Shown here one piece after another: positions 58,965 through 63,616 of a stretch of DNA of 64,000 nt. Origin of the DNA: Gemmatimonas aurantiaca T-27 (GTDB lineage Bacteria > Gemmatimonadota > Gemmatimonadetes > Gemmatimonadales > Gemmatimonadaceae); assembly GCF_000010305.1 (NCBI RefSeq), contig NC_012489.1:1240001-1304000 (forward strand), in the 5' to 3' direction. Each line of letters begins with the position of its first letter. Position 1 is the stretch's first letter. The notes under the pieces are model-generated. The model made no database searches and was not told the DNA's origin. It saw nothing but the letters and a program-made list of their open reading frames with translations. Position numbers and translations under genes: made by a program.

Positions 58965-60278
58965 TCAGGGTTTGGTGACGCCGCGGAATCGCGGTGTGAA
59001 GTCGGGGAAGACCACCGACAGGTTCGTATTGCCCAGACGGTTCTGCACGATCTCGGCGAGGATGTCGCGATGGTCGAGCGTGACGCGCAGGTCCTGACCC
59101 GATTCGAGATTCTCACGCGCCAAACCGGGCCAGCCGTTGGTCAGCACACGCCCACCGGCGATCTTGCGTCCCATGGCGAAGGCCACATTGCCACGACCGT
59201 GATCCGTGCCGCGTGTGCCATTCTCGCGGGCATTGCGGCCGAACTCCGAGATGATCACCACCGTCACGCCCGACGCGGCGTTGCCCTGGATCACATCGGC
59301 GTGGAACGCGGCCAGCGCACGCGACAGGTCGAGCATCTTGTTGTGCATAAAACCGCCGTCGAGATCGGCCAGCGGTCCCTGCGTGGCATGTGTGTCCCAG
59401 CCGCCGTTGAAGGCGTGCACGGCCTCGACACCCACATCCGCCTTGATCAGCGCCGCGGCCGAACGCAGTGCCTGTCCAAAACCCGACGTGGGGTAGGTGG
59501 CACCGTTGGAGGGCGCATACCCCGAGAAATTGATGCGCTGCAGCAGCGCGATCGTGTTCGTGGAATCGAGCGCGTTGTCCGAAACCGGATCTGTGGTGGA
59601 CGCATAGTTCTGCGCCAACCACTGTGTCCGCGCCGCTGTCGTCGTGCCACTGCCGCCAATGGTGAAATTGGCGGGGTTCGGGATGGGCAACGTCTTGGGG
59701 CCACCGACGAGCGTCTGCGGCAACCCGGATGTGAGGCCGAGGGCACGCAATGGCGCATCGGCGCGCAGCGGCGTCGATGTGGCCAAATGACGTCCGAGCC
59801 AACCGCCGGTGACGCGCGGATCTTTGGGCTTGCCCACTTCGATGTACCGCTGCGCATCGAAATGCGAGCGCGAATTGTCGACCGACCCCGTGGCATGTGC
59901 GACGAGCAGATCACCTGCCGTGTAGGCTGGCATCAGTGGAGCCATGCCGGGCGAGAACCCAAAAAAGTTGTCGAGCGCGACAGCTTTTGCGCCGTTGCCG
60001 GCGGCGTCGGGGCGCGGAACGGCAATGGTCGGCCGACCGGTGTAGTAGTCGGGATCACCGAAGGGCACGACCAACGACATGCCGTCGGTGCCACCACTCA
60101 GAAAAATCGAGACGATGACATCGCGCGAAGAATTGGCGCTCTGGGCGAGCACCACCTTGGGCAGCCACATCGGAAGCAGCGCGGTCACACCGACACTGCC
60201 TGCTACGCTCAGGAAATCACGGCGCGCGAGGGAGTTGTACTCGTTGCACCCGTGATGGTGATGATGGTCGTCGCTCAT
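58965..60278 (-). CDS. DUF1501 family protein (TAT-exported)
   Basis: 437 aa. Begins with five histidines (residues 5-9) followed by GCNEYNSLARRDFLSVAG, a TAT-type leader with twin Arg. Core segments: IVSIFLSGGTDGMSLVVPFGDP, SHFDAQRYIEVGKP, GWDTHATQGPL and VTVVIISEFGRN with ENGTRGTDHGRGN. DUF1501 proteins have an alkaline-phosphatase/sulfatase-like fold and occur in pairs with DUF1800. The DUF1800 gene lies directly upstream (85-bp gap) on the same strand. Substrate unknown. Confidence 0.86.
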   Translation of the reverse strand: MSDDHHHHHGCNEYNSLARRDFLSVAGSVGVTALLPMWLPKVVLAQSANSSRDVIVSIFLSGGTDGMSLVVPFGDPDYYTGRPTIAVPRPDAAGNGAKAVALDNFFGFSPGMAPLMPAYTAGDLLVAHATGSVDNSRSHFDAQRYIEVGKPKDPRVTGGWLGRHLATSTPLRADAPLRALGLTSGLPQTLVGGPKTLPIPNPANFTIGGSGTTTAARTQWLAQNYASTTDPVSDNALDSTNTIALLQRINFSGYAPSNGATYPTSGFGQALRSAAALIKADVGVEAVHAFNGGWDTHATQGPLADLDGGFMHNKMLDLSRALAAFHADVIQGNAASGVTVVIISEFGRNARENGTRGTDHGRGNVAFAMGRKIAGGRVLTNGWPGLARENLESGQDLRVTLDHRDILAEIVQNRLGNTNLSVVFPDFTPRFRGVTKP

Positions 60279-60363: not shown

Positions 60364-61902
60364 TCAGTACCATTGGAACTCCTGCGCACAGAGTGCCAGA
60401 GACAGCGTCTCTCGCACCCGTGCGTCGTTGTAGGTGCCGCCCTTGAGATACGACAGCAACGCGGCACGCAGGCTGGTGGGGAACTCACCACCATAGAGGC
60501 GCGCGCCAATCTGAGCCACCACACCTTCCGCCGAATCGGGCGCGCGGAACAACATGGAGTCGACACGCGCCGTGGTGGCACTGTTCAGCACCGACAACGC
60601 CTGCGCATACGACCAGCGTGTGATGACCAACCCACTCCACCAATCGATGCGATCGGGGTATCCGTTGGGCTGCTCCCACTGGAAGAGGGGCATGCCCATT
60701 TGATCAGCGCGTGTGCGTACCGATCGGATGTTGGGTACCGACGTGAGGTCGGTCCCGAGCGCCCGCAACCCGGATACTGCGTAGTGGAACGGCCGCTTGT
60801 ACTTGGCAGGCGCTGCCATGAGGTTCTTGCTGCTCAGAATCGTGCGGATCATCGCCGGGATGTCGCCGCCGGTGCGCGTGTACGTGGCCGCTGTGGCATC
60901 GACCACGGCAACCGGCGGCTCGTACGCCAGGAGCCAGCGTGCCATCTTCTGCGCGATGTACCTCGCCGTTGCCGGATGATCGAGCAGCATCTGAATGGCC
61001 ACATCCCCTTCGGCCTGCATCTGCGCATCGGTGGCGGTGGTCGCCATCGCCGGAAACGTGCGACCCAGGAACGTCTTCGCGTTGCGATCGTGATACGACC
61101 GGATGAAGCGGAAGACGCCGTTGTTGGTCATGCTCCAGCCGGTCAGAATGCGCGAGAGCTCGGCCACATCGTTCTGTGAATAGCCGCCATCCACGCCGAC
61201 CGTGTGCAGCTCCATGATTTCGCGCGCGTAATTCTGATTGGGCGTTGGCGTGCGGCTGGTGTTCTGGTCGAGGTAGAAGAGCATCGCGCCGCTGTGCGCG
61301 GAGGCCTTGAGCAAATCCGGGAACTTGCCGAGGGCGTACGGCCGGATGACCTCACGATCGTCGATCAGCTTGAGGAACCCGGCCTTGTTGATGCTGATCG
61401 TGAAGTGATCGGTCCAGAAATCGATCATGCGTTCACGCAACTGCGCTTTCGAGAACGCCGCGCGATACCACGCCGCGTCGGCCAACTGGGCAGCGACCTC
61501 ACCACCGTCGGCGGTGCGCAGCATATCGGCTGTCATCTGCATCATGGGCAGACGTGAAGCGATCTGCGATTCCAGCACGGCATCATCCATCGCGGCCGGG
61601 CGCAACTGATAGTCGAGATAGCCGTTGTAGCCGAGTTGCCGCGCGAGTGCCACATCGGCCGGTGCAAGGCCCATGGTGATGCGGCGGACCAGTCGCAGCA
61701 GCGGATCCTGCCACTGCGCCGACGGATCGGTCCCTGGTGCATTGCCAGCGGGCAGTGGCTGAGGGCGCCCAACGGGTCGCTGCGCTTCTGCCGTGTTGCT
61801 GAGCGCGAGGCCGGCCGCAGCCGACGCACCCAGGGCGAAAAAACGACGACGACTGTGGGTCGCCGACGCGTGAGTGTCAGGGCCTTCGTCAGGAACTGAC
61901 AT
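60364..61902 (-). CDS. DUF1800 family protein (TAT-exported)
   Basis: 512 aa from the ATG at 61902; ATGs at 61938 and 61989 are also open. TAT-like SRRRFFALGASAAAGLALS leader near residue 17. DUF1800 hallmarks: LLRLVRRITMGLAPADVALAR at the start, RERMIDFWTDHFTISINKAG, YLDQNTSRTPTPNQNYAREIMELHTVG and DVAELSRILTGW. Paired with DUF1501 in an apparent two-gene operon. The pair is common in Planctomycetota, Gemmatimonadota and Proteobacteria, with no established activity. The unusual 12-bp repeat array lies upstream. Confidence 0.87.
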   Translation of the reverse strand: MSVPDEGPDTHASATHSRRRFFALGASAAAGLALSNTAEAQRPVGRPQPLPAGNAPGTDPSAQWQDPLLRLVRRITMGLAPADVALARQLGYNGYLDYQLRPAAMDDAVLESQIASRLPMMQMTADMLRTADGGEVAAQLADAAWYRAAFSKAQLRERMIDFWTDHFTISINKAGFLKLIDDREVIRPYALGKFPDLLKASAHSGAMLFYLDQNTSRTPTPNQNYAREIMELHTVGVDGGYSQNDVAELSRILTGWSMTNNGVFRFIRSYHDRNAKTFLGRTFPAMATTATDAQMQAEGDVAIQMLLDHPATARYIAQKMARWLLAYEPPVAVVDATAATYTRTGGDIPAMIRTILSSKNLMAAPAKYKRPFHYAVSGLRALGTDLTSVPNIRSVRTRADQMGMPLFQWEQPNGYPDRIDWWSGLVITRWSYAQALSVLNSATTARVDSMLFRAPDSAEGVVAQIGARLYGGEFPTSLRAALLSYLKGGTYNDARVRETLSLALCAQEFQWY

Positions 61903-62070
61903 GACACTCACGGATGACTCGGAATCGCTCGATGCCATGGAGGCGGACCAGGGACGTGGGGCATGCGAGATGGTCGGCGCGCCATGCACGCCTTCGTGTC
62001 ATGGTGCTACGCCACCGACATCTCACCATATCCATAACTCAACCTTCCAGAGCGGCTGTCAATGAGCCGC

Positions 62071-62084
62071 GTCACAGAAGTGAC
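62071..62084. promoter_or_regulatory. GTCAC-n4-GTGAC inverted repeat
   Basis: Perfect 5-bp dyad with AGAA spacer. The half-site is the same pentamer that appears repeatedly in the neighbouring 12-bp array (read as GTGAC on the minus strand). Possible operator for the DUF1800-DUF1501 promoter. Confidence 0.4.
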
Positions 62085-62178
62085 AGATTGCTCCATCGGT
62101 GGTATGACGACCCGATCGCCATCCGGTTAACGAATTCGCGATGCGATAGATCACAACTCCGAGCATATCACGACGACA

Positions 62179-62290
62179 TCACCAAACACATCACCAAACA
62201 CATCACCAAACACATCACAGATGGCGTCACATTCGACGTCACAATGTGTGTCACAGTTCATGTCACATAGTGCGTCACACGGCGCGTCCT
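62179..62290. repeat. 12-bp-periodic TCAC (TGTGA) array
   Basis: TCAC tetramers start at 62179, 62191, 62203, 62215, 62227, 62239, 62251, 62263 and 62275, exactly 12 bp apart, with a degenerate TCCT at 62287. The first three spacers are identical (ATCACCAAACAC-type units). Later units keep only the core, usually GTCACA, while the other bases differ. Not CRISPR-like: the period is too short and there are no unique spacers. Confidence 0.85.
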
Positions 62291-62311: not shown

Positions 62312-63616
62312 TCAGAGTACGCCGGCGTTCAGACCGTAGATGGCCTGCAGCAGGGCCAACGCCACAAAACCGACGAGGCCGCCAAGACCCAGGATGAGCA
62401 TCGGCTCGAGCAATGCCACCACACGCGCGAGGGTGCGCTGAGCGTCCGTCTCCGATGCCGTGGCCGCGCGGGCGGCCAAAGGGCCCAAGGCGCTCGCCGC
62501 CTCTCCCGCTTCGAGCAACTGGCGAGACAGTGGTGGTAGCTGTGGGCCCAGCGCGCTGGCCAACGAGCCCCCCTCACGCACCTCGCGTTCGGCCGGCTCG
62601 AGGGCCGCCGCGAGGGCCACGTTTTGTACAGTGGCCCGTGCCAGCCCCATTGCGCGCAACAGGCTCACGCCGGAACCGAGCGCCAGGGCGAGCGTGCGCA
62701 GATATCGGGCGATGTCCAGTTGACGCTCCGCCGCACCAGACACCGGCAGCGTCAGACGCCAGGTGTGCCACTGGCGACGTCCTTCGGCACTTTGCAGCCA
62801 TTGCCGAAGCCCCACCATCGCCACCACGGCCACCATCGTCAGCAACCACCACCATTGTCCCACCAGGGCGCTGACGCCAACCAGGAGCTTCGTGCTGGTC
62901 GGCAGTGGTGCGCCGGTGTCGGTCAGCAGGGCGGCAAACCGTGGCACCACCACGAGCACGATCACCAGAATCGCGATGGCCGACGACGAGGCCAGTAATG
63001 TGGGATAGGTGAGCGCCCCACGAACGCGGGCCCGCAGTTCCGCGCCCCGTTCCAGATACTCGGCCAATCCTTCGAAGGCCGAGGCCAGTGAACCGGTGGC
63101 TTCGGCCGCCGCCACCGTCGGAGCCATGATGCTCGGCAACGCTGATTCCGCCGCGCAGGCGGTCGACAACGATTCGCCGCGACGGACCGCATTCCTGATG
63201 CGGACAAATGGGGCGCGCCAGTGAACGTTTTCGCTCGATGCGGCATGGCTCAGCGCGCGATCGATGGGCACACCGGCCGCGAGCAGCGTCGCCATACTGC
63301 GTACCAGCGCGGCCAGCGTTTCGGCGTCCTGCCCGCTCACCCGCGACCACCATGCGCTCAGCACGTCGCCGAACCGGTCGACCATGCGGGGGGGGCGGTC
63401 CACGGTCGCCAACGTCGTGGCGTAGTTCACCATGACGGCGGCGTCACCGTGCACATTCGTTGATGTGGTTGTGGCCTGCGGTCGCAGGTCGATCACCCAC
63501 AACGTGCGTGCCCTGAGTTGCGCCAGCGCATCGTCGGCGTTGGCCGCAGAGAGAACACCCTCCTGCTCGCGGCCCGTGGTATCTGCCGCACGGTAGTGCC
63601 AGCGCCCTTCGTTCAC
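62312..63616 (-). CDS. gspF: Type II secretion / type IV pilus inner-membrane protein GspF (PulF/PilC family)
   Basis: 434 aa from a GTG start at 63616; an open frame continues upstream but is low-complexity and overlaps gspE. N-terminus RWHYRAADTTGREQEGVL is typical of the family. The two T2SSF domains are at about 90-215 (MATLLAAGVPIDRALSHA) and 285-420 (RYLRTLALALGSGVSLLRAM), with hydrophobic helices after each, including one ending in VGFVALALLQAIYGLN. It forms the platform that couples the ATPase to pseudopilus assembly. GTGA overlap with gspE shows coupling. Confidence 0.92.
   Translation of the reverse strand: MNEGRWHYRAADTTGREQEGVLSAANADDALAQLRARTLWVIDLRPQATTTSTNVHGDAAVMVNYATTLATVDRPPRMVDRFGDVLSAWWSRVSGQDAETLAALVRSMATLLAAGVPIDRALSHAASSENVHWRAPFVRIRNAVRRGESLSTACAAESALPSIMAPTVAAAEATGSLASAFEGLAEYLERGAELRARVRGALTYPTLLASSSAIAILVIVLVVVPRFAALLTDTGAPLPTSTKLLVGVSALVGQWWWLLTMVAVVAMVGLRQWLQSAEGRRQWHTWRLTLPVSGAAERQLDIARYLRTLALALGSGVSLLRAMGLARATVQNVALAAALEPAEREVREGGSLASALGPQLPPLSRQLLEAGEAASALGPLAARAATASETDAQRTLARVVALLEPMLILGLGGLVGFVALALLQAIYGLNAGVL

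Follow-up and report, generated by a model that had tools for sequence, protein, structure and literature searches.

CRP sites are TGTGA-N6-TCACA palindromes, and iteron and centromere arrays (ParR, TubR and replication iterons) are built from short direct repeats, ~10-12 bp or longer. The boxes of the OmpR-family protein MtrA in M. tuberculosis are direct repeats of GTCACAgcg (PMC4285127, PMC13189361), and in the MtrA site of Streptomyces a 5-bp spacer separates two half-sites (PMC13189361). A literature search for Gemmatimonas with TGTGA sites found no paper. Here we analyse a 12-bp ladder of TGTGA-type words in a 64,000-nucleotide stretch of Gemmatimonas aurantiaca T-27 DNA (the window), where the neighbours of the array are T2SSE, T2SSF, DUF1800 and DUF1501. 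The features of the locus, in window positions, are as follows.

62312-63616, minus strand: T2SSF/GspF-like gene upstream of the array, in a synteny with DUF1800 that is kept in the genus
62168-62290, minus strand: whole array of KGTGAY-N6 units, nine in register, flanked on either side by a degenerate or off-register unit
62214-62279, minus strand: distal half of the array, six cores (five TGTGAC and one TGTGAT)
62176-62218, minus strand: promoter-proximal half of the array, near-identical 12-bp units, ACATCACCAAAC on the plus strand
62150-62155, minus strand: isolated TGTGAT, downstream of the array and out of register
62071-62085, no strand assigned: GTCACA-GAA-GTGACA pair beside the TTGACA box
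62057-62062, minus strand: -35-like TTGACA box, conserved among the orthologous gaps; no clear sigma-70 match in the -10 region
60364-61938, minus strand: first gene downstream, DUF1800 protein (PF08811) with a Tat-like RRRFF signal; the start codon is inferred, and GTG at 61989 is possible too
58965-60278, minus strand: second gene downstream, DUF1501 protein (PF07394)

The 12-bp ladder and its units

TCAC occurs nine times at an exact 12-bp period (62179, 62191, 62203, 62215, 62227, 62239, 62251, 62263 and 62275). All nine positions agree with those given by an earlier, sequence-only reading of this DNA, which had likewise placed a TCAC at 62168, 11 bp off register, and a degenerate unit at 62287; the latter reads TCCT. 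The DUF1800 and DUF1501 genes are both encoded on the minus strand, on which the ladder reads KGTGAY-N6, with the nine cores in register across 62179-62279; five TGTGAC units with unrelated spacers are followed by TGTGAT, by three promoter-proximal GGTGAT cores and then by the off-register GTGAT. The five spacers separating the six distal cores (GCACTA, ATGAAC, ACACAT, GTCGAA and GCCATC) are saturated, and the spacer GTGTTT is common to units six to eight. TRF split the array into 62176-62218 (period 12, 3.6 copies, 100% match) and a poor 24-bp array at 62211-62279. The near-identical 'first units' and the drifted later ones described before correspond to the promoter-proximal end and to the distal end by gspF, respectively, and the near-identical units are probably the youngest expansion of the array. 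A consensus scan for promoters and terminators around the array gave no sigma-70 match.

When the whole genome (a single contig of 4,636,964 bp) was searched, TGTGAY-TGTGAY-KGTGAY at 12-bp spacing was found in this array only, and three GTGAY at the same spacing were found at one other place, as an isolated triple; no second ladder of this kind exists in the 4.64 Mb. Among 464 kb sampled from three Gemmatimonas species, the search for other ladders (any 4-mer, period 8-30, at least six copies) returned none but one 27-bp repeat, and first-order Markov sequences yielded zero such ladders in three trials. The ladder exceeds chance expectation.

Mean pairwise mismatch among the six non-identical units was 0.056 (5.6%) over the six core columns and 0.70 (70%), about the random level, over the six spacer columns. 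TGTGA (columns 1-5) is invariant in these six units and GTGA in all nine. A column shuffle gave P = 0.013 for the conserved columns making one block; the contrast between the core and spacer rates is the stronger argument. The sequence-only reading had proposed a decayed tandem array with a preserved core and drifted spacers, and had held that a core no better conserved than its spacers would speak against it; the divergence just described bears the proposal out. Since all unit positions of a neutral minisatellite should diverge alike, these rates indicate that the core itself was kept, beyond mere repetition. The old spacers have drifted without change of length, a hint, from few intervals, that spacing matters as well.

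The ladder might nevertheless be a functionless, partly decayed minisatellite that chanced to hold TGTGAY, as the near-identical units at one end would suggest. However, slippage or gene conversion would homogenise entire units and not cores, and here saturated spacers accompany invariant cores; we consider this explanation unlikely, although it deserves real weight in view of the comparisons below. Phased DNA bending, which had also been suggested, is not supported, as a 12-bp period does not match the 10.5-bp turn of the helix. A coding repeat, with a peptide of Cys-Asp or Val-Thr units, or an RNA element was considered too, as the minus-strand TGT-GAY frame is open through the array and a plus-strand frame is open up to a stop near the distal end. 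Third-position GC, however, is 0.42 in the array versus 0.78 in DUF1800, the predicted fold is weaker than that of shuffles (z +1.2), the array has no Rfam match and the congeners have no counterpart. Coding repeat and RNA structure were therefore rejected as extremely improbable.

The TGTGAC word in the orthologous gaps and before a small-RNA candidate

The gspF-like and DUF1800 genes are adjacent throughout the genus, and the gap between them, compared from the gspF stop to the conserved TTGACA box, was readable as a syntenic, orthologous region in 24 congeneric species. The ladder was present in none of these 24 gaps and is restricted to one species among those examined, which would also fit a functionless minisatellite. 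The related species have one or two copies of the TGTGAC word in the same promoter; they are thus without a repeat and have kept the core, which is the opposite of the fast-changing repeat without a core that the sequence-only reading had regarded as fatal to its proposal. TGTGAC/GTCACA was the top-ranked 6-mer in the orthologous gaps, with 18 occurrences seen versus 1.1 expected from mononucleotide shuffling (~16-fold). Its density there was ~6 per kb, whereas intergenic DNA sampled from three species had 0.3-1.1 per kb. The congeners are mutually related, so the gap counts are not fully independent.

Similar sequences were grouped into 17 clusters, and site positions were counted once per cluster. 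Measured from TTGACA, TCAC lay at -54 +/-1 in 8/17 clusters, at -74 +/-1 in 7/17 and at -21 in 4/17, and 0/500 shuffles equalled the top count in a position test anchored on TTGACA. The sites keep their fixed distance to TTGACA although the flanking sequence has diverged: the -21 site of G. aurantiaca, which belongs to the pair beside the box, recurs at this position in four related species, with flanks that share just 25-38% identity with its own. The ladder runs in the opposite orientation to most of the sites in orthologous promoters. Being fixed in position and enriched in relatives, the TGTGAC word is an old part of the DUF1800 promoter and the ladder a local upstream addition. That other species keep this word in the promoter where the array lies argues against a functionless minisatellite. 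The same enrichment and positional conservation suggest that the binding platform envisaged from the sequence is probably correct. As a separate observation, intergenic DNA rich in AACTGA/AAAACT words (L229-L234, G028 sample) suggests another degenerate short repeat family.

A search for paired TGTGAC turned up intergenic pairs with a 20-bp spacing. One family of these pairs precedes a strongly conserved segment (GGTAGGACGGAGAGTTCCAATGAC) that is present in 28/30 Gemmatimonas genomes and represents a small-RNA candidate of ~80-100 nt, with an adjoining tRNA gene where checked (L272, L273-L299). A terminator-like hairpin follows the conserved segment, and the two sides of the putative stem show a C-G to T-A exchange, read by eye, that looks like covariation; the candidate has no Rfam match of its own. 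The YGTGAY pair precedes the small RNA in 26/28 genomes, with N14 spacing in 25/28 and N15 in one, and the G. aurantiaca operator is CGTGAC-N14-TGTGAC (G000:C1:3165695-3165718). Conservation of the direct-repeat YGTGAC in the genus is therefore not tied to the DUF1800 promoter, and this genus-wide operator, YGTGAC-N14-YGTGAC, could serve as bait in the search for the regulator. TGTGAC-N14-TGTGAC was also seen before genes with a common leader, GTGCCGCCGGCGTGCGTGAGTCGTCCA (L263/L334 and L251); the gene with this leader in G. aurantiaca encodes Big_2 Ig-like domains.

The sequence-only reading had pointed to CRP/FNR-like proteins, and a CRP/FNR-family operator array would be in keeping with TGTGA as the CRP half-site, with the clear CRP-type domain detected in the genome and with the GTGA-N6-TCAC palindromes in two congener promoters (L031 and L039). 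However, all half-sites of the ladder point one way, with no inverted partner at N6, and the repeats of the conserved operators are direct and 20 bp apart; moreover, that CRP-type domain was the only clear one. Because the ladder and the conserved operators are both in direct orientation and not palindromic, we disfavour this attribution and regard it as very improbable.

Enriched and fixed in position in the DUF1800 gaps, and paired before the small RNA, TGTGAC is very probably the half-site of a genus-wide, direct-repeat-binding regulator. The word that is repeated in the ladder thus looks regulatory elsewhere in the clade, in the orthologous promoters and in the small-RNA promoter, as in a homotypic cluster. 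We therefore favour, with some confidence but well short of certainty, the reading that the ladder is a homotypic cluster of YGTGAC half-sites for such a regulator, multiplied by slippage in the DUF1800-DUF1501 promoter region, with the cores held by selection; saturated spacers beside intact cores, together with the promoter's own history, argue for function. A 12-bp segment with one site, ~105 bp upstream of the TTGACA box, would have been multiplied by replication slippage in G. aurantiaca, after which the spacers would have drifted while selection held the cores. Several regulator molecules side by side might then raise the local concentration and tune the DUF1800-DUF1501 promoter; alternatively, the clustered sites might sequester the regulator. 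The 12-bp period of the ladder, as opposed to the 20-bp spacing of the conserved operator, counts against the regulator cluster, and so does its orientation, which is the reverse of that of most orthologous sites. The exact period could itself be functional if a protein oligomerised head to tail over the nine sites, forming a stiff or helical filament as a promoter-bound polymer platform; we think this improbable, and we know of no chromosomal promoter with such a platform of this word and period.

Ladders in other genomes

In another congener (G021), a six-unit degenerate 12-bp TGTGAY ladder, TGTGAYGTSRAT (G021:C19:237480-237545; L006, L338), lies before a GAF-like gene (named by eye). The orthologous regions upstream of this gene have no ladder, and TGTGAC was seen 0 times versus 2.1 expected, so similar ladders can arise without a pre-existing site; this case went against the expectation that other ladders, too, would always have grown on sites already present. 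This ladder is the main counter-evidence to the regulator-cluster reading, and it is consistent with a functionless minisatellite, as is the presence of TGTGAY in ordinary near-identical tandem repeats with periods of 9-19 across the phylum. Some TGTGAY ladders may be plain minisatellites. Degenerate AATCCCC-type repeats adjoin the G021 ladder.

Among the matches listed in a scan of 84,980 species, most were pure tandem or coding repeats, and the Bacillus ladders were inside long reading frames. In the alphaproteobacterium IMCC14465 (L154), a degenerate four-unit 12-bp TGTGAY ladder lies between HPr kinase-like and PTS EIIA component-like genes (recognised by eye). Rumen Prevotella (L110, L128, L133, L140, L144 and L177) carry dispersed elements with two 12-bp TGTGACG ladders ~70 bp apart, inside reading frames with Val-Thr-x-x repeats, and at least two of these frames open with a CRP/MarR-like winged helix (weak match). 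Direct TGTGAC ladders can thus accompany winged-helix-like proteins elsewhere, and the element may be a protein gene that includes its own binding sites or origin. The Prevotella cases are a dispersed element separate from the Gemmatimonas ladder.

These double ladders, together with the exact period, single orientation and nine units of the array, would fit a polymerising or partition/iteron-like platform, with head-to-tail repeats coated by a winged-helix protein in the manner of ParR, TubR, BldC or replication initiators. However, no partition or replication gene lies beside the array, which is single-copy in the genome and is located at 1.30 Mb, away from dnaA at the contig start, and this reading of the ladder appears decidedly improbable. 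If the regulator-cluster reading is correct, the locus apparently shows a promoter in which slippage is multiplying the site where its regulator lands; little is known about regulation in this phylum.

Comparison with known systems

The ladder shares the TGTGA half-site with CRP/FNR sites but differs from them in having neither the TGTGA-N6-TCACA palindrome nor any inverted half-site. Like iteron and centromere arrays, it is made of short direct repeats, but it stands in a chromosomal promoter context without adjacent replication or partition genes. Its tandem 12-bp units, with 3.6 identical copies at one end, are those of a minisatellite, whereas its core is conserved against saturated spacers. 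It resembles homotypic transcription-factor site clusters, in which many copies of one word lie upstream of one promoter, and is unlike them in its strict 12-bp spacing, single orientation and presence in one species only. An MtrA-type operator would have half-sites ~11 bp apart, compared with 12 bp in the ladder, with its nine sites, and 20 bp in the small-RNA operator, and the genome has 16 matches to OmpR-type DNA-binding domains, none linked to the ladder site. OmpR-type proteins bind similar words, though at other spacings, and the GTCAC-containing sites described here have in common with those of Mycobacterium and Streptomyces MtrA a GTCACA half-site arranged in direct repeats.
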